A DNA stretch of 64,000 bases from the NCBI GenBank assembly GCA_947167515.1, contig CAMVIM010000012.1, positions 1-64,000 of the forward strand. The letters run 5' to 3'. Of the stretch, positions 2,882 to 59,850 are shown in pieces. A model generated the notes under the pieces. It worked only from the letters and a program-made list of their open reading frames with translations, was not told the origin of the DNA and searched no databases. Position numbers and translations under genes: made by a program. The first letter of the stretch is position 1, and each line of letters opens with the position of its first letter. This DNA comes from an uncultured Prevotellaceae bacterium (GTDB taxonomy: Bacteria > Bacteroidota > Bacteroidia > Bacteroidales > Bacteroidaceae).

Positions 2882-3408
2882 AAGCTTGCAATCATTTCTT
2901 GGAAACTCTTCCATGAAAGGGCGCGGCCTTCCTTTGTGGGATAATTGACATCCTCTTGCCCCCATATCCACTTATATGCTTTGATTAGAGCCTCTGGCAT
3001 CTCCCCTGACTGGAAAGACAGGCTTCTGATGTCATCAATGAACTCTTCGGGCTCCTCACCGTTGTATGTCCGCTCAAATAACGCGAGTAATTGCTTGCCT
3101 TGCACTTTGTCCTCGGCTACTTTGGCTCTGACATCCTCAATGATTTGGTCGTGCGAAATCTGCCACAAAGAATTGTCCGAGGGGTCGAAGATGAATACCA
3201 TAATATCTTCCTTGTAGGGTAGCCCGTAAGCTTTCTTTCCACCTGGCTTGGTGATAGCAATCTTCCTGCCATCCCCTAATTGCTCTACCTCGTAGCCTCT
3301 ATACTCAATGTCGATGATGGCTTGTGCGAAAGCCTTGCGCTCCATGTTGCGGATATGGATCTTCTTCAAGTCGATGGAGTGATTGTATTTGTTCTTTATC
3401 GTGACCAT
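2878..3408 (-). CDS. Unknown gene inside the DpnII-type restriction operon
   Basis: A 176-residue soluble protein whose family I do not recognise. It lies 24 bases after the endonuclease gene and overlaps the next methylase by four bases (ATGA), so it is co-transcribed and probably translationally coupled with a restriction enzyme and a methylase. It is basic at the N-terminus (MVTIKNKYNHSIDLKKIHIRNMERK), has a beta-rich middle (residues 40-75, with RKIAITKPGGKKAYGLPYKEDIMVFIF), and a helical, acidic C-terminal half with 'W-x-W-G' near residue 148. No helix-turn-helix or nuclease motif is obvious. Described DpnII and MboI operons have three genes, so this is an extra component. It could be a specificity, control or protective factor; none of these is shown. 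Confidence 0.7.
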   Translation of the reverse strand: MVTIKNKYNHSIDLKKIHIRNMERKAFAQAIIDIEYRGYEVEQLGDGRKIAITKPGGKKAYGLPYKEDIMVFIFDPSDNSLWQISHDQIIEDVRAKVAEDKVQGKQLLALFERTYNGEEPEEFIDDIRSLSFQSGEMPEALIKAYKWIWGQEDVNYPTKEGRALSWKSFQEMIASL

Positions 3409-3432
3409 GGCCCAGTCTATGCTGTTTATTCG

Positions 3433-4266
3433 CTATTTTAGTTCGTCCAAGAAGTCTTTGAGGGTTGTGAGGTTGTAAACGCTCGGTATCGTATAGTAGG
3501 CTTCCTGCAATTTGTTCTTTGCGCTCTCCCAACCCTTGCCGTCGGTCACCCATAGGAACTCGAAGCCCTCAACACCGTTCACTTTCGGAGCAAGTTCGGT
3601 GAAGGAGCGAGCCGTCTCGTTGAGCTTGGAACCGCCGCCGCTATAGAAATTCACCTCGGCGAGATAGGTCTTGCTCTTGGCCTCGATTACAAAGTCGAAA
3701 CGCTTCTTGTCGGTGCCGAGGGCTTCCGTGATGGCTGGCCACTCGCTGGAATAGACCTCCTTGCGGTACTTCAATCCGCTACCCTTGATAATAAGTTCAA
3801 CGGTGTCCTCCATGGCATCGCCGCTGCGGTTCTTGCGGGCGTTGGAGTCGAGGCCGACTTCCACGCCAAAGACATAATCAATGAGGTTCTTGACGTTCTT
3901 ATCCTTGAAAATCTTGGAGAGACCTGTGCCCTCGATAAATTCCATCACGCCGTCGAGCGTCGTGAGGTAACTTTCGAGCAGGACGAACTCGGCGTTGGCG
4001 TTGATGACCTTTTTCTTGTCACGCTTGCGGCAGGCGATGAGGATTTGCAGCACGTCGAACACGTGCTTGTCGTTGTTCCAAAGTTCCGTGACGGCAGCCC
4101 GCAGGTCTTGCTTGCCAAGCAGGTAGTTAAGGGTGTTCAACTTGATTTCGATGCTTGCCACGTTGTCTTTGACTTTCGCAAAGTCCGTCCAATAACTCAG
4201 CGTGGCGTTGGTTTCGGAGAGTTGGGACATGAAGGTCTTGAACTCCGCTTCTGTATGTGCGCTCAT
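3433..4266 (-). CDS. DpnII-family type II restriction endonuclease (GATC)
   Basis: A 277-residue endonuclease of the DpnII/MboI family, cutting unmethylated GATC. The family signature is clear in the C-terminal half: 'KKRFDFVIEAKSKTYLAEVNFYSGGGSKLNETARSF', where the Asp of RFDFVI and the E-V-N of LAEVNFY form the PD-(D/E)xK-like active site, followed by the conserved SGGGSKLNE loop. Length matches the family (about 270-290). It starts three bases after the stop of the dam-type methylase, so the methylase is translated first in the operon. Assignment to GATC rests on family membership and on the paired alpha- and beta-class adenine methylases. Confidence 0.9.
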   Translation of the reverse strand: MSAHTEAEFKTFMSQLSETNATLSYWTDFAKVKDNVASIEIKLNTLNYLLGKQDLRAAVTELWNNDKHVFDVLQILIACRKRDKKKVINANAEFVLLESYLTTLDGVMEFIEGTGLSKIFKDKNVKNLIDYVFGVEVGLDSNARKNRSGDAMEDTVELIIKGSGLKYRKEVYSSEWPAITEALGTDKKRFDFVIEAKSKTYLAEVNFYSGGGSKLNETARSFTELAPKVNGVEGFEFLWVTDGKGWESAKNKLQEAYYTIPSVYNLTTLKDFLDELK

Positions 4267-49622: not shown

Positions 49623-50585
49623 ATGGCAAAGAAGAAGAAAAAATATAGTCAGTGGAAATTCCTCATTGCCTTCACGGTGACGATGGGACTGTTTGCTGGG
49701 GTGCGCCACGTGTTTGGCATCGAGGTGCCGCTACACGTGGAGAAGTCTGCAACGACAGAGCTGATGGCTCATGCGGAGAATAGCGGCAAGGAGGATGAAA
49801 CGGCCGATATGGAAGAGGTGCTGGCAATGGAGCAGCCTTTCAGTGCCAATCTGGTCACAGAAGAAGGCCTCGATGAGGAGGATGAAGAAATTGAAGAAGA
49901 GGAGATGGAGGAGACGAAAGATGAAGTGGATGAAGAGGGAACTATGAACAAGGAGGGTAATGACAGTCTGTCTGACAGCGAGATGACAGACTCGATGCCA
50001 CGGGGCAAGCATCGCATTCGGGGCGTGTGGAGTTACTCTGACTGTTTTCCTGACATTCAGGATGTGCAGATTGTGGCAGCACAGAAGCATGGTATCAGTC
50101 CTGTAAGAAACCGAGCTGAGGCCGAAGTGCTGGTGCGGCAGCATCAGCTGGTGAACATCAGCCACTCCCCGTTCTATTCCATCGACAAACTAACCCACTC
50201 CATCCCTTATCTGGTGCCAAGAGCACAGCACTTGCTGAACACCATCTGCTTGAACTTCATCGATTCGTGTCAGGTGAAAGGTCTGCCTCTTCACATGCCG
50301 ATTGTAACTTCCGTGTTGCGCACGACTGACGATGTGTCGAACCTGCAACGCGGTAACAAGAATGCCACCACAAACTCATGCCACTGCTATGGAACGACGG
50401 TGGATATTGCCTACAACAAGTTTATGCCCATCACTGGCACCTATGAGTCGAATGCCGCTCTACTCCGATGGAACGAGCCCATGAAGCAGGTGCTGTCTGA
50501 AGTGCTGAACGACCTGAGGAGACAAGGGAAATGCTATGTGAAGTATGAACGGAAACAGGGCTGTTTCCATCTCACTTGCAGGTAA
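49623..50585 (+). CDS. DUF5715 family protein (VanY-like fold)
   Basis: A 320-residue protein with an N-terminal signal anchor (MAKKKKKYSQWKFLIAFTVTMGLFAGVRHVFG), a long acidic linker (about 55-125, runs of Glu/Asp: 'EEDEEIEEEEMEETKDEVDEE') and a C-terminal DUF5715 domain: 'LPLHMPIVTSVLRTTDDVSNLQRGNKNATTNSCHCYGTTVDIAYNKF' and 'KCYVKYERKQGCFHLT'. The His and Asp residues (C-H-C-Y-G-T-T-V-D; F-H-L-T) mirror the zinc ligands of VanY-type D-Ala-D-Ala carboxypeptidases, so peptidoglycan trimming is likely. ATG 49608, overlapping the malQ stop, is an alternative start. Its end overlaps the convergent methyltransferase gene by 14 bases. Confidence 0.8.
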   Translation: MAKKKKKYSQWKFLIAFTVTMGLFAGVRHVFGIEVPLHVEKSATTELMAHAENSGKEDETADMEEVLAMEQPFSANLVTEEGLDEEDEEIEEEEMEETKDEVDEEGTMNKEGNDSLSDSEMTDSMPRGKHRIRGVWSYSDCFPDIQDVQIVAAQKHGISPVRNRAEAEVLVRQHQLVNISHSPFYSIDKLTHSIPYLVPRAQHLLNTICLNFIDSCQVKGLPLHMPIVTSVLRTTDDVSNLQRGNKNATTNSCHCYGTTVDIAYNKFMPITGTYESNAALLRWNEPMKQVLSEVLNDLRRQGKCYVKYERKQGCFHLTCR

Positions 50586-51933
50586 GAAGTCTGCGGGCAA
50601 TCTTCTCTACCACATCGGCGTTGACGGCATTGCCTAATGCCTTGAACTTCTGCACACGCGAAAGGGTGCTAAAGTTTAGTTCCTGCATAGACTGGATGCG
50701 GGCTGCTTCGCTGTGGGAGATGTAGCGTCCCCAGCGGAAGTCTTCGGGCGTGTAAGGCTTTCCGTGCTTGTCCAGCGCACCCTGAGGCGGATAAGGTATA
50801 AAAGGAAGAATGGGTGTGGCAGTGGTGCAGAGCGTGATGGTGGGGATGTAGTTCATCGAGCGGATGCGTATGCCCGACGGACGCAACTGGATGACATGAT
50901 GCTTGAAGTCCCAATCTTGGTTCGTGCTCCACTCAAGCATACGCTGGGTGCGAGGATATCGCCGAATCTTTTTCAGCCAAGGGTCTATCCAGTCCTTGTG
51001 CCGCTGGTACATCTCGCGGTTCTGACGAATAAGTATCTTCTTGAATTCGGGATAAGTGTCCTCGTACTTCGTCTTCCGCATATAGAAAGGAAGACCAGCT
51101 ATCAGCTCCTCGCGCGTTTCACCTTCGAGCACCTGACCATAAGAGCCGTGACGCCCACGCAACTGCTCCAGCGGCTGGAAAGCGGGAGGGGTTTCCTCAA
51201 AGTCATAGTCGGCTCCAAACTCCATCGTGAAGATACAATGGGAAGGCATATAGCCATCCCGCTTGGTCACATTATAGACAAACTCCTGCCAAGCGTCGAA
51301 AACGGGATGAAGTCCACGCCGCACGGCCTGCACATGGTCATTGTCGGCAAAATCCACAATGCTGCGGACATCGCTGGGAGCATGATGGTCGGTGCGATAG
51401 AAATGGAACTTGTGCAGCCCACTGACTCCTTGCTCGTTGCGCAACATCCCGACGATGTAGAATCGGGGGCGATGCTGAGGAACGCCAAATTCGTGAGGAG
51501 AATAGATATGTGCGCGAATGTCATAGCCGAGTGCATCAAGTTTTTGCCGAATGGTTTTCCAGGTGCGCCCTCCGTCATGTCCTGGCAAGGCGGATACATT
51601 CTCCAGAAAGATGTACTTCGGGTGATGCTCATTCAGAACACGGCAGATTTCATCGAAAAGGTTGCCACGCCCCAGTTCATCGTCAAATCCCTGTTTCTTT
51701 CCCGAAAATGAAAAGGGTTGACAAGGGAAACCAGCACAAAGCACCTCGTGAGGTGGAATGTCGGCAGACGAGATTTTGGTGATGTCACCGTGAATAGGAA
51801 CATTGGGAAAGTTGATTTGATACAGTTCCTGCAACTTCGGCTGTATCTCGGATGCGAAGACACATTCATGTCCCAAACGAGAAAGGGCGAGATGGAATCC
51901 CCCAAGACCTGCAAATAAATCGATGAATTTCAT
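50572..51933 (-). CDS. Solitary DNA (cytosine-5) methyltransferase
   Basis: A 453-residue C5 methyltransferase: motif I 'MKFIDLFAGLGGFHLAL', motif IV 'LCAGFPCQPFSFSGKKQGF' with the catalytic Cys, motif VI 'YIFLENVSAL', motif VIII 'HRPRFYIVG' and motif X 'FKALGNAVNADVVEKIARRLL'. The target-recognition region lies at about 200-390 and does not reveal the sequence specificity. No restriction endonuclease, Vsr or specificity gene is next to it, so it is an orphan. It overlaps the start of its own frame with the stop of the symporter gene (ATGA at 51930-51933), so it is coupled to a transporter and a sensor kinase. Confidence 0.93.
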   Translation of the reverse strand: MKFIDLFAGLGGFHLALSRLGHECVFASEIQPKLQELYQINFPNVPIHGDITKISSADIPPHEVLCAGFPCQPFSFSGKKQGFDDELGRGNLFDEICRVLNEHHPKYIFLENVSALPGHDGGRTWKTIRQKLDALGYDIRAHIYSPHEFGVPQHRPRFYIVGMLRNEQGVSGLHKFHFYRTDHHAPSDVRSIVDFADNDHVQAVRRGLHPVFDAWQEFVYNVTKRDGYMPSHCIFTMEFGADYDFEETPPAFQPLEQLRGRHGSYGQVLEGETREELIAGLPFYMRKTKYEDTYPEFKKILIRQNREMYQRHKDWIDPWLKKIRRYPRTQRMLEWSTNQDWDFKHHVIQLRPSGIRIRSMNYIPTITLCTTATPILPFIPYPPQGALDKHGKPYTPEDFRWGRYISHSEAARIQSMQELNFSTLSRVQKFKALGNAVNADVVEKIARRLLTCK

Positions 51934-53345
51934 TTTCTTGATACAATCATTAGTCCGACGAAGGTTAATAAACCGTTGAACATTAACATCTCGTAGCCAA
52001 ACTGATAACCGGTGAGCTGGCCGACGCTGTAACTGATGGCATAACAGATGAGAGGCGATGCAATAGCGATATAGGGCACACAGGACTCCCGGGGCTTACG
52101 CTTGGTGAACATACCAAAGGAGAACAGACCGAGGAGCGGACCATAGGTGTAAGACACCAAGGTATAAATCAAGTCCATCACGCTACCCGAACCTATCGCA
52201 TTGAAAGCCAATGTGACCACAACAAAAGCGAGGAGCATGCCGAGGTGAACGCGCTTGCGCACCTTCTCGTCCTTTTCTTTTTCCAGAATATCGATGCAAA
52301 AACTGGTGGTCATGGCAGTCATGGCTGAGTCGGCAGAAGAGAAAGCGCTGGCAATGACACCCACAGTGAAGAAGATGAGACATGCGGTGCCTAACGTGCC
52401 ATCAAGAACAATGCCTGCCAAAAGGTCATCGCCCTTATCGGGAAGTGGAAGTCCCTGCTGCTGATAGAGAAGGAGCAAGAGAACACCAAGAGCCAAGAAG
52501 AGGAAGTTGACAGGCACGAAAAGAAGTCCATAGGAGCACATGTCTTTCTGCGCCGAGCGGAGGTTCTTGCAGGTGAGGTTCTTCTGCATCATGTCCTGAT
52601 CGAGTCCGGTCATGACAATCACAATAAAGACACCCGACAGGAATTGTTTCCAGAAGTTCTGCTTCGATGCAAAATCGTCAAACTCAAACATACGCGAATG
52701 GGGGTCGTTCCAGACGGCAGACATGGCTTGGAGGAAGTTCATGTCGAGCATACAGGCTACTCTCAAAAGAATAAGCACCAATGCCAACAAGAGGCACACT
52801 GTCTGGACGACATCTGTCCACACCAAAGTGCGGATGCCTCCCTTGCGAGTGTAGAGCCAAATCAGAATCAATGCTGCAAGAACTACTATGGGATAAGGAA
52901 GGGCGAAGGTGTCAGCAAGACACATCTGCAATATCCGGCAAACCACATAAAACTTTGCAGCTGCCCCCAATAGTTTACTGCCCACAAAGAAAGAGGAGCC
53001 AGTCTTGTAGCTGGTTCTTCCGAAACGATAATCAAGGTATGTGTAAATGGAGGTGAGGTTGTAGCGGTAGTAAAGAGGCAGAAGCACAAAAGAAACGACG
53101 ACATATCCCAGCACGAATCCGAAACACATCTGCATGTAGGTCATGTCTATGCCCATCACCCACCCAGGCACTCCGATGAATGTCAATCCAGAGATACTGG
53201 CACCCACCATGCCGAACGCCACGAGTGGCCAAGGGGACTGACGGTTGCCTGTAAAAAAAACAGCGTTGCCACCTCTCTTGCCAACGAGGTTGGAGAGAAG
53301 CAGCAACGCACAAAAGTATAATATAACGGTAATGAGAACCAGCAT
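51930..53345 (-). CDS. Sodium:solute symporter (SSS family)
   Basis: A 471-residue inner-membrane transporter with about 13 hydrophobic segments. The SSS signature regions are 'FGMVGASISGLTFIGVPGWV' (near 45-65), 'ILIWLYTRKGGIRTLVWTDVVQTVCLL' (near 165-190) and 'VIASAFSSADSAMTAMTTSFCIDILEK' (near 330-355, sodium site 2 region). The substrate is unknown. The start is at ATG 53345. It lies eight bases after the double sensor kinase gene and overlaps the methyltransferase gene by four, so three unrelated functions share one operon; the kinase may sense the transported solute. Confidence 0.9.
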   Translation of the reverse strand: MLVLITVILYFCALLLLSNLVGKRGGNAVFFTGNRQSPWPLVAFGMVGASISGLTFIGVPGWVMGIDMTYMQMCFGFVLGYVVVSFVLLPLYYRYNLTSIYTYLDYRFGRTSYKTGSSFFVGSKLLGAAAKFYVVCRILQMCLADTFALPYPIVVLAALILIWLYTRKGGIRTLVWTDVVQTVCLLLALVLILLRVACMLDMNFLQAMSAVWNDPHSRMFEFDDFASKQNFWKQFLSGVFIVIVMTGLDQDMMQKNLTCKNLRSAQKDMCSYGLLFVPVNFLFLALGVLLLLLYQQQGLPLPDKGDDLLAGIVLDGTLGTACLIFFTVGVIASAFSSADSAMTAMTTSFCIDILEKEKDEKVRKRVHLGMLLAFVVVTLAFNAIGSGSVMDLIYTLVSYTYGPLLGLFSFGMFTKRKPRESCVPYIAIASPLICYAISYSVGQLTGYQFGYEMLMFNGLLTFVGLMIVSRK

Positions 53346-53353
53346 CAACTCAC

Positions 53354-56300
53354 CTATGCTTGTACACTCATTCTTCTGATGTCGGCATCTGCTATCACAG
53401 AGAACTTGGAGCCAAACCCTACCTTACTCTCCAATCCAAGCTCAAGGCCCATGCCTTCTGCCAATTTCGAGGCCACATTCAAACCCAATCCTAAGCCAGG
53501 GATAAAGCCATTGTCTTTCCAGAAGAGTCCGAAGGCCACTCCTTGCTTTTCTTTAGGAATACCACAACCAGTATCTTCCACAAAGAACTCGGCTTTATCA
53601 CTGTTCAGATGATAGGCCACACCGATGGCGATGACACCTTGCTCGGTAAACTTGATAGCATTGCTGACCATCTGGTTGAGAATATACTTCACACGTTCAC
53701 GGTCATTATGAACGACGATGCCAGGCAACACGGCGAGTACATGCATCGTCACATTCTTAGGAACCAAATCTTGCCACTCATTCGCAACCTCTTTCACCAA
53801 ATCTACTGCATCGAAGTCATTCTTCACATACTGAATGCGTCCACTCTCTATGCGCGAGAACATCAAAATGTTCTCTATCATGGCAGAGAGACTGGTGTTG
53901 TTGGCCTTGATAATCTTGGCATACTCGTCCATCTCTTCCTGAGTGAAAGAATCGGCAGGCATGCTCACCATCACATCGCTGAATCCAACCACCGCATTCA
54001 GTGGAGTGCGAATCTCATGGCTGATGGTGGTGAGGAAATCCTCCTTCTGTCTTGCTTCTTCAGCCAAATTCATGGCCTTGCGGAGGTCTTCCTCATATTT
54101 TTTCGTTTCATCAATGTTGATGAGGATACCCTCCACATTCTTACGTCCTGTCTTATTGTCATAAATCACGACGAAACGCAATTGCCACCATCTGTAATTG
54201 CCATCACGCTCCACATCGCAATAGATTTCATAACTGTGAGAACCAGCGATGTCGATAGCTTGTCTGATGAGCGGAACCTCTGATGCATAGTCTGGATGCA
54301 CATAACTAATGATTTCCTTCACCTTCGCCACACTACGTACATTGTGGCTATCGGCACCATGCAATGCCATGTTGCGGAGTTCGGCACGGCGTTTCACACC
54401 TTCCATCAGTTCTTGTGCCGTGCGTGTCTTCCATGCCACCAGCACGAGCAGGATAGCAAAGGCCGCCGCAAGAAACACCAAAGTGATGACCGTCCATGTA
54501 CCATAAGTCAGCAAAGGCATCGTCACTTCTTGAGGTGCGCCCACGATGATGAAGCGATCCTTATAATCATCATAGTCCATGCCCAGTGCCTCCATCGCTT
54601 GGTAGTCCATGTAAAAATTCTTCTCATGGGTCATGCCGACAAATGTGGCCAAATCCGCCCCTTTCAAGATGTCAGATGCCACCTTTGCCAAGTCGTTAGC
54701 CACCGTCTTGTAACCAGCAAAATAGCCGCATAAGTATCTTCCGTCACCATCCGCGAAACCAGCCTTTACAGCAGTGAACTGCGGACGCCCAGTCTTGTTA
54801 GCGATGGAAGAACTGAAGATGTCCCTCTTCACCGCCACCGACGGATAGAGCCACGAATGAATGTAGATACGACGCAGATTGTCGTATCCATCCTCCATGT
54901 TGTAAAAATCTGAAGTGTTGCGCTCTGGAGACTCCGTCGAGTAAACCAACACCATCACACTGTCACGCCACTCATTATAAAATTGTTCATCACCCTTTAC
55001 CTGAATGTGAAAATCGGAGTTGTCTATGTAAGGCGGACGTGCAATGGCAGCTTTCAGTTCCTTCCGAATGAGCGAATCTTGCTTGAAATAGTCCAGTTCT
55101 ATCTCCACACAGTTTTTACCACTCAATTCAACAGCCAAATTGATATTGGTGCAATAGTCTATCGGGTCACTAATAACCACAATGTTGTTATGGCGACGAA
55201 TATTCTCCCATTCAGGATGATGCACACCACCAAACACGACTGGCACACCGCTCAGTTCCTTGCTCATGCCCTTTTCCTGCCACTGCAGGTAATCGGCCGA
55301 TGCACGGTCTCCTTCTATCAGAATCACATCGGGTGCCCACCCAGCGTTCTTCAGGGAATCCTGAATTTTAAGATGCTTCTCGTCAGTATTTTCAGTCGGA
55401 TTCCCCAAGTCAAGATACACATGCTGCATATCCACATTGATGCCATTCAACGTGAAAGTTTCCATCAGGTGGTCATTAAAACTTCTATAAGATGAGAATT
55501 CTTTCTCATAACTATGAAACACCAGTACCTTAGCATGCTTTTGTTCGCCCTCCGAACGCGACAAGCACGAAGACGGAAGAATCAATCCTGCACACACCAT
55601 CAGTCCCAAAACGAAACACTGCACATAGCGCGAGAGCCGGAAGAAGAACTTGCTGCCCTTCCCCAATTCACTCTCAACACCAATCGTTCCACCCTGCTTC
55701 TCCATGATGGTCTTGCTGATGTTCAATCCAAGACCCGTACCTCTATCCGTCTCGTTCACCTTCACGTACCGCTCAAACAACTTACTTTGCTTTTCGGGGG
55801 CTACACCTATACCCGTATCCCTCACATACACTTCAATCAGTTCTGGATTATCCTCCATATATTTCCAGCCTAGCGTCACGCTACCCTCAGCCGTAAACTT
55901 GAAGGCGTTGCTTAAGAAGTTGTTAACCACCTGCTTGGTACGCGTGATGTCAATGTTCAACTCTGAGTCAGGGTCGGACATTTCGAGGTTGAACTGCAAG
56001 TGAGTAGGCGCGATGATGTGGTTGGTGTTATAACACTCCTGCACCAGTTTCTTCACCGAGACAGGCTTCTGGATAATTTCCAAATCACCCGTCTCAATCT
56101 GTGCCTTCTGCATCACACTATCAATCATGTTTAGAATCATGTCCGTGTTCTGGTGGATGATTTCGCCATATTGCTCTCTCTCGCCCTCTTCAAATGTCAT
56201 ACCCGGAGTGGTCAACAAAGAAGAGAATCCTGTAACCGCACCCAGAGGGGTACGCAAATCGTGGCTGATGTTAGCCAAGAAATTCTCTTTCAGAGCCACC

Positions 56301-57949
56301 TCACTCGCCAGCAACTGTGCCTGCTCCAAGCGCTCCTCCGTTTCCTTCTTTTGGTCAATGTTCATCAAGAGACCATACAACTTACCCGTACGAGCAGTTT
56401 CTTCGTTTGCCGTATAAGTCACTTCAGCCCAGAACCAAGTCGTTCCACCATCAGGGCTTAAATGTAAGCGTATCACCTTCTTGCCTCGTTGTTCGCGGAA
56501 GTTCTTCAGGAACTCATACGAAGGCTTACTGTCCGGATGCACCATACCATCCAATTCTTCCTCCGTCACTCGGTTTGAAGGCAGTCCGAAATAATCTGAG
56601 AACTGCGAAGTCAACGTAAACACACCATCATAGTATTCCCAAAGCGTGTCCTTTGCATTTGAGAACATCAGGTCATGCACCTTCTCCTCGTATTGCAGTT
56701 CCTCCATCAGCTGGTTTTGCCCTCTCTGCTTCCAACGAATCATAAAGAACACTATCAGATAGATTACAAACGAGATGACCAAAACTATCACCGTAATCTC
56801 CACCACAAACATGACTGGATTCTCCAGATAGTAAGGTGCATTCACGATGTGAAATTTCGAACTGTAAGCATTGTAAGGCACATGTGGGAATGTCATCTTC
56901 ACGGCTTTCCAGTCCAAGAAATAATCACTGGCATGCATGCCTAAAGTCAACGACTGGGGAGACTCACCGTTCATGATGCGCACGGCATAACGCACTTGAT
57001 CCTCCACCTGCGTTTCCGTGCCCGTGAAGTAGCCACACATGAATTTCGGATCCTGCGGGTCACCAAACTGTTCTCGGATACAAGTAAATTGCGGCTTTCC
57101 GGCATGATCCATGAGGCTATTGCTGAAGATGTCACACTTCACCTGCAAGTGCCACAAGGTGGAAGCCTTCTGGTAGTAGCGTCCCGTCCTCTCCTTTCCG
57201 TCCTCATCCGTTTCTCCCTCGCTAATGTTCCTGTAGGGTTCAGCACACGAAACCATATTCACCACAGCCTGTCCAGGATACCTTTTCTCCAGATAGTTCG
57301 CATCCATATTCTTGACACGGAAGTCACTGTTGTTCACGAAACGTGCAGAGTCCTGCAATTCGTCCTCAAACTGTGCGCGCAAACGGTCATCCATTCCTCC
57401 ATAGTCCAGTTCTATCACCACGCTCTGACTCCTTCCCATTCTCATCACTTCCTCTATGTTTCTGCCCAGGTCGATGCGCGCTTCAAACCCAGTCATCTTC
57501 GGGAACTTCTTCAGTGAATCCGTCAGCAGGGTGTTCACACCTGCAAAGACTATCGGCGTATTCAAGAGGATGGAGTCGGGATGTTCCTGCGTCAACAACC
57601 ATTCAACGATGGGGTCATCGTTCAGGAGAATCACTTCCGGTTTCCACTTTTTGATTTGCTCTGCATACTTTGGCCAATCGAAGGCAGAAAACACTTCAGC
57701 TGGACGACGCACCATCGCAGCGTAGATATGATGAATCTCCACGTTGTTCATGCCGTTCTCGCGGAACGCCTTTTCCATACATGTCGAAAAGAGTTCCTTT
57801 TCTTCTCCGATGCTATCCCACGAGTGAATAACGACCACCGAATGAGAGGGTCCAGAGGACTTGAAACTTTTCACCTTACTGCACGAAACCAGTATTGCAA
57901 ATAACAAACCCAGTAAAAGTATGATTTTAGGTAACTGATGTCTTTTCAT
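53354..57949 (-). CDS. Two complete sensor histidine kinases fused in one polypeptide
   Basis: A single uninterrupted frame of 1531 residues. Half 1: lipobox-type signal (LVSC, C23), periplasmic ABC-substrate-binding-like sensor (35-370), transmembrane helix (380-403), PAS-like domain (430-535), HisKA with H563 (NISHDLRTPLG), HATPase with N-box 'NNFLSNAFKFT' and G-boxes 'DTGIGV', 'GTGLGLNIS' (to 771). Half 2 repeats the order: hydrophobic helix (776-795, FVLGLMVCAGLILPSSC), sensor (806-1145), transmembrane helix (1152-1173), PAS-like (1190-1285), HisKA with H1311 (TISHEIRTPLN), HATPase (to 1520). The halves are clearly related but diverged. Four membrane passes keep both kinases cytoplasmic. 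There is no receiver or DNA-binding domain and no response regulator gene nearby. Transport and methyltransferase genes follow. Confidence 0.88.
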   Translation of the reverse strand: MKRHQLPKIILLLGLLFAILVSCSKVKSFKSSGPSHSVVVIHSWDSIGEEKELFSTCMEKAFRENGMNNVEIHHIYAAMVRRPAEVFSAFDWPKYAEQIKKWKPEVILLNDDPIVEWLLTQEHPDSILLNTPIVFAGVNTLLTDSLKKFPKMTGFEARIDLGRNIEEVMRMGRSQSVVIELDYGGMDDRLRAQFEDELQDSARFVNNSDFRVKNMDANYLEKRYPGQAVVNMVSCAEPYRNISEGETDEDGKERTGRYYQKASTLWHLQVKCDIFSNSLMDHAGKPQFTCIREQFGDPQDPKFMCGYFTGTETQVEDQVRYAVRIMNGESPQSLTLGMHASDYFLDWKAVKMTFPHVPYNAYSSKFHIVNAPYYLENPVMFVVEITVIVLVISFVIYLIVFFMIRWKQRGQNQLMEELQYEEKVHDLMFSNAKDTLWEYYDGVFTLTSQFSDYFGLPSNRVTEEELDGMVHPDSKPSYEFLKNFREQRGKKVIRLHLSPDGGTTWFWAEVTYTANEETARTGKLYGLLMNIDQKKETEERLEQAQLLASEVALKENFLANISHDLRTPLGAVTGFSSLLTTPGMTFEEGEREQYGEIIHQNTDMILNMIDSVMQKAQIETGDLEIIQKPVSVKKLVQECYNTNHIIAPTHLQFNLEMSDPDSELNIDITRTKQVVNNFLSNAFKFTAEGSVTLGWKYMEDNPELIEVYVRDTGIGVAPEKQSKLFERYVKVNETDRGTGLGLNISKTIMEKQGGTIGVESELGKGSKFFFRLSRYVQCFVLGLMVCAGLILPSSCLSRSEGEQKHAKVLVFHSYEKEFSSYRSFNDHLMETFTLNGINVDMQHVYLDLGNPTENTDEKHLKIQDSLKNAGWAPDVILIEGDRASADYLQWQEKGMSKELSGVPVVFGGVHHPEWENIRRHNNIVVISDPIDYCTNINLAVELSGKNCVEIELDYFKQDSLIRKELKAAIARPPYIDNSDFHIQVKGDEQFYNEWRDSVMVLVYSTESPERNTSDFYNMEDGYDNLRRIYIHSWLYPSVAVKRDIFSSSIANKTGRPQFTAVKAGFADGDGRYLCGYFAGYKTVANDLAKVASDILKGADLATFVGMTHEKNFYMDYQAMEALGMDYDDYKDRFIIVGAPQEVTMPLLTYGTWTVITLVFLAAAFAILLVLVAWKTRTAQELMEGVKRRAELRNMALHGADSHNVRSVAKVKEIISYVHPDYASEVPLIRQAIDIAGSHSYEIYCDVERDGNYRWWQLRFVVIYDNKTGRKNVEGILINIDETKKYEEDLRKAMNLAEEARQKEDFLTTISHEIRTPLNAVVGFSDVMVSMPADSFTQEEMDEYAKIIKANNTSLSAMIENILMFSRIESGRIQYVKNDFDAVDLVKEVANEWQDLVPKNVTMHVLAVLPGIVVHNDRERVKYILNQMVSNAIKFTEQGVIAIGVAYHLNSDKAEFFVEDTGCGIPKEKQGVAFGLFWKDNGFIPGLGLGLNVASKLAEGMGLELGLESKVGFGSKFSVIADADIRRMSVQA

Positions 57950-58032: not shown

Positions 58033-59850
58033 TCAATTCTTACCATCTTGAGGGGGTATCTGCAAGGGAAGATTATCACGATGCGCCTCAATATGCGGTG
58101 ACATAATCTCCACACCTGCCCCGTGAAAATGGTCAAGAATGTTGGAGTGGAGAGCCGAATAGACTGTCGGCAGGGTTTTGGCCCTATCTGTATATCCATT
58201 GATTTCATACTCCACATAAAAGTCATCCAACGAGGTGACTCTCACGTATGGCTTGGGGTGCTTCTTAATGCCTTCAGTCGCCTCTGCCGCATCCAATAAG
58301 AGGCGTTCAATCTTCTTCCAGGGTTCGTCATAGCCAATCGTGATTTTCGTGTGAACAATCACTCCATATCGTTGAGCAGATGAAGAAAAGTTGGAGGTCT
58401 GCGAACTCATCATGTTTGAGTTCGGAATGGTGACTATCTCGTTCTTGCGGGTACGCACACGAGTGACCAGCATCGATTTCTCCACCACTTCACCCTCTGT
58501 GTCACCAAAGCGGATGTAGTCGCCAATACGGAACGGACGCATGTATGTCATCACCAGTCCTGACATCACATTTCCCACTATTGAAGTGGATCCCAGCGAA
58601 ACGATGACACCAATGAAGACGGATACCCCTTGGAAAATCTCCGAATTAGAACTGGGCAGCAAGGGCCATATCATCACCAGCATGAAGGAATAGAAGAGCA
58701 CCCTCAGAATGGAATAGGTCGGCATAGCCAAATCTGCATAAAATCCATTAATCTTCAGTTTACCAGAAGCAATCTCATTGGCAAAGAAGCGAATAACTTT
58801 GAGCAAATAACGAAAACAGATGATGATGACGATGATTTTGAAAAGGTCTGGCAGATAATTCACCACCGCAAAGAAGATATCTTTCATCGGACTCAACACA
58901 TACCCCAAGATGGTGTAGGTAACAGTCTTGGTCTCTGGAAAGATTGAGAAGATCAGCGGAATGGAAACAAGCAATTGCAGCAACACCAGAACAAATCGGA
59001 ACACATTCATCAGCACGATGATAGCCACGCCCACCCTATGAGTGTCGAACAGTGTGTAGTCTTTAATGCGGATGGGTTTGATATTGCGCAACAAGATGCG
59101 TGTCAGCCTCATTTTCCAACGATTGAAGAACAAGTGTGTCCCCATAATCAAGAGAATCTGCACCACAAGGATGAGCATCGCAAGTCCAAAAGAATTCATC
59201 TTCTGCTGGATGCCATAAGAGTCATGCAGTTCTTGCACCTTCTTGCGGATAATCTCGCTATAACGATTTGCCAGCTCCACACGATCTGTGTTGTTCCAAA
59301 GGGCATCGAGGTGAGTCACACTGAGAATGACCGTTTCGCCAGCCATCACATCAGTCGATTCCTCACTGTCAAACACATAGATGGAATCAGGAACAAACTT
59401 GAGGCTCTTCCCCACCTCCAAAATCTTCTTTTGAGCCGATTTCGTTCGGGCTTCGGGTTGTAGACCACCCTTACGAGCATAAATGACCAGCAATGTATCG
59501 CCCTCCACAATCAGCGGCGAGCCCTGCGTAACCTGACGCAAAGAGTCTATGCGCTGGCGTTTCTTCACTTCTCTCAGCGAGTCCTCACGGGTATTCTCAC
59601 CTGTCTTCTCCAGCTGCTCCTGCATGACGATACTTTGTAGTTTCAGTTCCTGTATCTGGTGGCGCAATTCGCGGGTGATGGAATCATTAACCGCCATAAC
59701 AGAGTCCATCTCCGACATACGAGACACACTAGACACATCTATTCCGCCTGACGCTTCAACCTCTTCATACTCTCTCTCCTGCGCGAATCCTGCCGAAACA
59801 AGTATCATGGCCACCCACAACATCAGGCAACGCAAATATATTTTTCTCAT
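58033..59850 (-). CDS. MscS-family mechanosensitive channel with periplasmic coiled coil
   Basis: A 605-residue protein. A signal peptide (1-23, cut after FAQ) precedes a periplasmic region with a coiled coil (about 45-95, 'ITRELRHQIQELKLQSIVMQEQLEK'), then five hydrophobic segments (205-400), the pore-lining helix 'FIGVIVSLGSTSIVGNVMSGLVMTYMRPFRIGDYIRF' and the beta domain ('GEVVEKSMLVTRVRTRKNEIVTIPNSNMMSSQTSNFS'). It is a large MscS-like (MscK/YbdG type) channel that vents solutes on osmotic downshock. It has its own consensus promoter (59881-59911). Confidence 0.92.
   Translation of the reverse strand: MRKIYLRCLMLWVAMILVSAGFAQEREYEEVEASGGIDVSSVSRMSEMDSVMAVNDSITRELRHQIQELKLQSIVMQEQLEKTGENTREDSLREVKKRQRIDSLRQVTQGSPLIVEGDTLLVIYARKGGLQPEARTKSAQKKILEVGKSLKFVPDSIYVFDSEESTDVMAGETVILSVTHLDALWNNTDRVELANRYSEIIRKKVQELHDSYGIQQKMNSFGLAMLILVVQILLIMGTHLFFNRWKMRLTRILLRNIKPIRIKDYTLFDTHRVGVAIIVLMNVFRFVLVLLQLLVSIPLIFSIFPETKTVTYTILGYVLSPMKDIFFAVVNYLPDLFKIIVIIICFRYLLKVIRFFANEIASGKLKINGFYADLAMPTYSILRVLFYSFMLVMIWPLLPSSNSEIFQGVSVFIGVIVSLGSTSIVGNVMSGLVMTYMRPFRIGDYIRFGDTEGEVVEKSMLVTRVRTRKNEIVTIPNSNMMSSQTSNFSSSAQRYGVIVHTKITIGYDEPWKKIERLLLDAAEATEGIKKHPKPYVRVTSLDDFYVEYEINGYTDRAKTLPTVYSALHSNILDHFHGAGVEIMSPHIEAHRDNLPLQIPPQDGKN

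Follow-up and report, generated by a model that had tools for sequence, protein, structure and literature searches.

A conserved lipoprotein-type signal inside a two-kinase protein of a Bacteroidaceae genus

One open reading frame (ORF), P0001, in the window (the whole stretch of 64,000 nucleotides that was analysed) encodes two sensor kinases, A and B, joined by a segment that resembles a lipoprotein signal and ends in an invariant lipobox-like cysteine, Cys795. At the level of sequence, this cysteine speaks against a second signal that serves as a membrane helix and nothing more, and for a possible cut in the chain at this point. We regard it as narrowly probable that internal lipoprotein processing yields equimolar kinases A and B, which would work as a pair. 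Use of the internal signal would mean that a protein of bacterial signalling is matured like a viral polyprotein and that two different sensor kinases are delivered at a fixed ratio to one place in the membrane.

The two-kinase reading frame and its conservation

The earlier note on this DNA had described a single uninterrupted frame; indeed, the ORF runs from an ATG through 1531 codons with no internal stop (Table 1). Inspection of the junction DNA likewise revealed neither a stop nor a frame break, in agreement with that note, and the carriers in the window genus (the genus of the genome from which the window comes) are all open there. From its N-terminus, P0001 reads signal, sensor, helix, kinase, internal signal, sensor, helix, kinase, with hydrophobic segments at residues 6-22, 388-404, 775-791 and 1146/1154-1170 by hydropathy. 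The two halves can be aligned over their full length (213 of 740 positions identical, 29%; E 3e-92), which bears out their description as diverged paralogues. HisKA and HATPase_c each match two stretches of the protein (Pfam; E 5.3e-31 and 7.6e-39, respectively). A PAS domain had been claimed for each half: that of the second half was found (PAS_3, the only one above the curated Pfam cut-off), and that of the first half, where no Pfam match exceeded the cut-off, is suggested by collinearity with the second. Response_reg had no Pfam match in P0001, which does not combine a receiver and a DNA-binding domain in the same chain as a hybrid two-component (HTCS) protein does.

Table 1. Parts of the two-kinase ORF and neighbouring genes, in window positions
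Feature	Position	Strand	Basis or remark
Whole two-kinase ORF, P0001	53354..57949	-	ATG start, 1531 aa, no internal stop
N-terminal lipoprotein-type signal, residues 1-23, ending in Cys23	57881..57949	-	Cys23 invariant (36/36); hydrophobic residues 6-22
Sensor A, residues 36-385, presumably periplasmic	56795..57844	-	Sensor profile A1
Membrane helix of half A, about residues 388-405	56735..56788	-	Hydropathy
Kinase A, about residues 553-774 (HisKA with His563; HATPase_c 667-773)	55628..56293	-	Pfam, residue alignment
Internal signal segment, residues 776-795, ending in Ser794-Cys795 (lipobox-like LPSSC)	55565..55624	-	Invariance (36/36), hydropathy, shuffle control
Sensor B, residues 803-1150	54500..55543	-	Profile A1; genome-search match 54500-55534
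Membrane helix of half B, about residues 1146-1170	54440..54514	-	Hydropathy
PAS_3 of half B, residues 1208-1275	54125..54328	-	Pfam
Kinase B, residues 1301-1531 (HisKA 1301-1370 with His1311, then HATPase_c)	53357..54049	-	Pfam, residues
Sodium/solute symporter (Pfam SSF)	51930-53348	-	Next gene downstream, a few bases after the kinase ORF; listed TTG start
C-5 cytosine DNA methylase	50572-51933	-	Adjoins the symporter
MscS-type channel gene	58033-59850	-	Directly upstream of the kinase ORF

Neither sensor has a significant Pfam or PDB match by sequence search. Two of the 30 sensors matched ABC_sub_bind (PF04392), the best at E 0.16 and below the curated cut-off, and a related protein (L113) reached E 1.1e-4, with 22.0 bits against a cut-off of 25.9; sensor A is perhaps distantly ABC_sub_bind-like.

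When the whole protein was searched in 61 genomes, matches at E <= 1e-60 were obtained in 29 of the 37 genomes of the window genus, its own included, and in none of the 24 other genomes of the order. In each of these 29 genomes, the match is a single frame of 1530 aa or more that no stop interrupts, and the relatives are 46-84% identical. The remaining eight genus genomes, some of which are incomplete and may have a gap there, gave no match to sensor profile A1 at E <= 1e-8, and thus no split pair. A family search added four carriers in the genus (G435, G650, G673 and G681), all fused, so that the fusion which the earlier note had proposed to look for in relatives was found in one open frame in 33 of the 33 window-genus carriers. 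Among 49 loci on named contigs, which overlap the genome set in that some are the same genomes, 36 carry a full-length fusion, one a shorter one (L155) and 12 separate genes. The named contigs with the sensor come from Bacteroidaceae or Bacteroidales metagenome assemblies, many of them from ruminants or horses according to their titles, and fusion carriers include Candidatus Minthosoma equi and caballi, Minthosoma being placed in Bacteroidaceae.

The set used for conservation was reduced from 65 loci to 37 distinct proteins, then to 36 after one was dropped at >=97% identity; four further carriers (L093-L096), whose loci hold only part of the ORF, were left out. Pairwise identity among the 36 proteins ranged from 41 to 96%, with a median of 58%. 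Because all 33 genus carriers are fused and the fused proteins have diverged to this extent, we consider the fusion in the window genus to be real and old.

The junction between the kinases

Within residues 773-802, Ser794 and Cys795 are the sole invariant columns (36 of the 36 fused proteins), and among the 15 cysteine positions of P0001 only Cys23 and Cys795 are invariant in this set. Residue 774 is Arg or Lys in 33 of the 36 proteins. A loose lipobox motif was present in residues 775-803 in 35 of the 36 proteins (mean 9.6 and maximum 19 in 2000 shuffles), and a strict lipobox pattern of the PROSITE kind in 16 (shuffled mean 2.1, maximum 8), where the shuffles keep the composition but not the clustering of hydrophobic residues, and the related proteins are not independent. 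At the N-termini, the strict pattern was matched in 33 of the 36. The internal sites that fail it have a Pro at -3 in 19 of 20 cases; a separate A gene (L116) has LPSSC at its N-terminus as well, so that Pro at -3 does occur at a presumed true N-terminal signal.

Mean hydrophobicity was 2.22 for the internal segment, 2.48 for the N-terminal signal, and 2.93 and 3.18 for the true helices, which places the internal segment nearer the N-terminal signal than the true helices; it was below the A helix in 35 and below the B helix in all of the 36 proteins. The median uncharged run of the internal segment, 20 residues, equals that of helix A (20; 17 in the N-terminal signal), so that the segment could span the membrane. 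The earlier note had read the second signal as one kept inside the chain as a membrane helix: the hydrophobic stretch lies where it was claimed, but the invariant Cys795 argues against a mere helix.

Independent translation of B from an internal start was considered and rejected. An ATG occurs somewhere in the codons for residues 765-794 in 29 of the 36 fused proteins, at differing places; no in-frame start for B alone is conserved among the 36, and one of them (L034) has no ATG, GTG or TTG in this interval.

Separate pairs in sister genera and a second family

At E <= 1e-20, the sensor was found in 56 of 399 genomes of the family, 29 of them from the window genus and 27 from six other genera. 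In the sister genera g185, g202 and g205, the kinases are mostly separate neighbours, in runs of two to four genes with frames of 608-826 aa, and two neighbouring separate genes were also seen farther out in the order (G162, G241 and G325). When the ATG nearest the signal is taken as the start of B, the stop of A and the start of B overlap as ATGA in seven of the nine g205 pairs examined, the exceptions being L104 and L116. Most of the separate B genes seen start with a lipoprotein-type signal, at a place matching the internal segment of the fusion; L111, without a lipobox, and L112, with Asp before the Cys, are exceptions. The separate tandem kinases of the sister genera (for example L098, L099 and L101) resemble P0001 in sensors, order and kinase type, but form two to four genes instead of one, and several copies are degenerate.

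In a tree of 79 units, drawn from 17 of the 37 fused proteins and 21 other loci and built by a quick method with SH-aLRT support only, the A halves of the window genus formed one clade (support 97) and the B halves another (100). At all 15 sister-genus loci of the tree, a unit's position corresponded to the type, A or B, with which it grouped, the A unit coming first, and four-gene arrays read A-B-A-B. From these clades and the grouping by position, we conclude that the duplication which gave A and B preceded the fusion and that the pair is the inherited unit. Two further fusions, both in g185 (L102 and L100), fall apart from the window genus; by the tree, fusion arose in three lineages. A hydrophobic stretch has been retained at either junction, as has a Cys preceded by Ser or Gly. 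The A half of L100 (1372 aa) is without the phospho-acceptor His and the ATPase domain, and the B half of L102 (1411-5922, + strand; 1503 aa) is without the phospho-acceptor His, the N-box Asn and the G2 Gly. L102 can be described as an intact kinase fused to a pseudokinase.

The genome of the window also holds a DUF5112/DUF5113 ORF of 1500 aa with two HATPase_c stretches (G000:C42; L005:3222-7724, - strand). A response regulator match lies just past it (C42:18843-19160). DUF5113 was found in 97 of the 121 family genomes sampled and in 25 of 30 genera, with frames of 1000-1544 aa among the matches listed, a single one, close to a contig end, being shorter (652 aa). Among 198 genomes of the order, eight matched: three strongly, all Bacteroidaceae, and five weakly, one of which, with neighbours, passes the cut-off. 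Six further ORFs, drawn from 20 DUF5113 loci that hold the whole ORF, all contained DUF5112 and DUF5113, with two HATPase_c stretches in four and one in two (L184 and L192); with the ORF of the window's own genome, a second HATPase_c stretch was present in five of the seven scanned proteins. None of the seven, own copy included, matched HisKA. As the second kinase is often diverged, "two-kinase-like" is a fair name for these proteins.

A junction of basic residues and a short hydrophobic run was seen in 58 of the 61 DUF5113 loci, the pattern giving none in L222-L224. In the shuffle-controlled site test, which is rough and filed L216 and L228 under both types, 23 of the 58 junctions carry a lipobox-like Cys and 13 an A-x-A followed by Gln or Glu; at least one site type was present in 34, against a mean of 2.8 and a maximum of 9 in 1000 shuffles. 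Gln after the cut is usual at type I sites of Bacteroidetes, with a mean Q-value of 71% over species (PMC5837995). In L216 and L234, the type II match falls within the hydrophobic stretch and is probably due to chance, and simpler motif rules misfiled some junctions, for example L193, L218 and L231 (type I) and L216 (type II). Neither site was found in 24 of the 58 junctions, including the own copy and five of the seven of the window genus; several of these end in other small-residue motifs. Both types occur within the single genus g27, with four type II-like copies and one type I-like copy. The internal segment was less hydrophobic than both helices in 20 of 20 loci, a twenty-first (L198) having given no junction.

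DUF5112/DUF5113 proteins resemble P0001 in having two halves in one ORF, each with a sensor and an ATPase-like part, and a signal-like junction after the first ATPase domain. They differ in their unrelated sensors (TPR/DUF5112 and DUF5113), in being without HisKA, and in the response regulator match that adjoins the ORF in the window's own genome; neither DUF5112 nor DUF5113 was found in P0001 (Pfam). A search of open-licence PMC by these names returned no paper, and the proteins are an annotated, apparently unstudied near case of two kinases in one chain. Since DUF5113 is so widespread in the family and many copies have a similar junction, the question reaches beyond one genus.

Proposed processing and alternative readings

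We propose that the genes of sensor kinases A and B, once a tandem pair in this order and probably co-translated, lost the stop of A and the start of B in the ancestor of the genus, and that the lipoprotein signal of B was thereby kept inside the chain. Sensor A would be exported by the N-terminal signal, the helix near residues 388-404 would stop transfer, kinase A would fold in the cytoplasm, and the internal signal (about residues 775-794) would restart export. Cys795 would be diacylglycerol-modified by Lgt, and signal peptidase II (LspA) would cut between Ser794 and Cys795, giving equimolar products: kinase A, whose C-terminus would be a short membrane tail, and a lipid-anchored kinase B. 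This pair may read two periplasmic ligands and act on a response regulator encoded elsewhere. We infer these steps, from export, lipidation and cleavage to the pairing, ligands and target of A and B, from sequence comparison.

The polyprotein model is favoured because Ser794-Cys795 is invariant, the segment has signal-like hydrophobicity and the lipobox motif exceeds shuffles; because separate B genes mostly start with a lipoprotein-type signal and the further fusions keep a lipobox-like Cys; because the DUF5112/DUF5113 junctions carry site motifs above shuffles and are less hydrophobic than helices; and because A and B form separate clades, arrays read A-B-A-B and no start of B is conserved. 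Counting against it are the modest share of strict lipoboxes (16 of 36), the uncharged run of membrane length, the 24 of 58 DUF5113 junctions without a site, and the separate B genes L111 and L112 without a good lipobox. Moreover, no Lgt/LspA substrate that has been tested is known to carry a large cytoplasmic domain ahead of its lipobox, and none was found among the open-licence PMC papers listed. The wider claim, that two unrelated families of Bacteroidaceae sensor kinases are made as polyproteins with a cleavable internal signal (type II or type I) and form strict 1:1 obligate pairs, is put forward tentatively, as just short of an even prospect. If true, this would be an unrecognised route to obligate kinase pairs. 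P0001, if its internal signal is used, would offer a natural system for studying histidine kinase hetero-pairing and how far lipoprotein processing can go.

Chains with two HisKA-HATPase units occur elsewhere, for example in fungi, and such an arrangement is not new in itself. To our knowledge, none of the other two-kinase chains has a kept internal lipoprotein signal, and no paper on a conserved signal of this kind between two sensor kinases was found among the open-licence PMC papers listed. FbcH, the cytochrome b/c1 polyprotein of Bradyrhizobium, is reportedly cut by signal peptidase at an internal signal; like P0001, FbcH is the product of a gene fusion in a bacterium and carries an internal signal sequence where its parts are joined, but it contains no kinase and undergoes type I rather than lipoprotein processing. 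Viral polyproteins are similar to the model in being processed at internal signal peptides, but this is done by the eukaryotic signal peptidase complex.

The chain may instead stay whole, as a permanently covalent A-B double kinase whose internal helix reinserts it into the membrane, with Cys795 lipidated or not. The earlier note had suggested such a covalent heterodimer, which could respond to two ligands and whose kinases could phosphorylate each other. We consider an uncut chain a substantial possibility, though short of probable: the fusion is conserved, the internal segment is long enough for the membrane, with an uncharged run equal to that of helix A, and fusion in three lineages is consistent with a selective advantage of a fixed A:B ratio or of contact. 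A plain helix nevertheless leaves unexplained why Ser794 and Cys795 alone are invariant (36 of 36) in variable surroundings, as well as the signal-like hydrophobicity and the site motifs of the DUF5112/DUF5113 proteins. Even if uncut, P0001 would be of use as a conserved pair of kinases in one covalent chain, in which one could ask which half is phosphorylated by which.

Cys795 could also be kept for a disulfide, or for metal or ligand binding in the periplasm, the junction being an ordinary membrane anchor. An invariant cysteine is indeed no proof of lipidation in itself; this reading is unlikely, however, as the only other invariant cysteine is that of the N-terminal lipobox, Cys23, and as Cys795 directly follows a signal-like segment, as the cysteine does in most separate B genes.

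That one half is a dead pseudokinase in the window genus, kept only as a sensor or scaffold, appears very improbable and was rejected on the residues. The earlier note had found the H-, N- and G-boxes intact in both halves, and this held throughout: in each of the 37 distinct fused proteins of the genus, that of the window included, both halves carry the phospho-acceptor His, the N-box Asn, the G1 Asp and the G2 Gly. Both halves of P0001 have the residues of a HisKA-type sensor histidine kinase (His of HisKA; N, G1 and G2 of HATPase_c). This retention of two intact kinases argues that both activities are used in the window genus. What lends the pseudokinase reading some substance is that related copies in the sister genera do lose catalytic residues. 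Many array copies there are degenerate, with Q, R, K, N, S, Y or F in place of His, or no ATPase domain. The first A of the g202 arrays is without an ATPase domain; among the sister arrays, other A copies have Gln or Arg replacing His, and some B copies have Arg, Lys, Asn or Phe at this position. Both partners of the second pair are without His in four of the five distinct g202 arrays (L099, L110, L156 and L161), and only B is in the fifth (L109). In the second pairs of L099, L110, L156 and L161, the other catalytic residues remain in both partners.

The joining of two genes by an assembly or annotation artefact, for which the earlier note had made separate genes in relatives the test, is barely credible and was rejected: sister genera do have two genes, but the frame is open in 33 of 33 genus carriers, and the 36 fused loci among the 49 named ones bear titles from many separate metagenome projects.

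Gene neighbourhood and response regulators

The symporter gene lies directly downstream of the fusion in 25 of the 36 fused named loci (about 2 kb off in L138), followed by the C-5 cytosine DNA methylase gene in the same 25. This neighbour hints, no more, at a small-solute signal. A MatE-type gene is often found upstream of the fusion in the named loci, and an MscS-type gene in the flanks of only two of the 49 (L118 and L137), so that the presence of the latter between the MatE gene and the kinase appears to be variable.

Response_reg gave 11 matches in the genome of the window, none of them on its contig, C12. Two adjacent kinase-like ORFs of 906 and 286 aa, as separate genes, were also observed in this genome (L006:270-2990 and 3045-3905, + strand).
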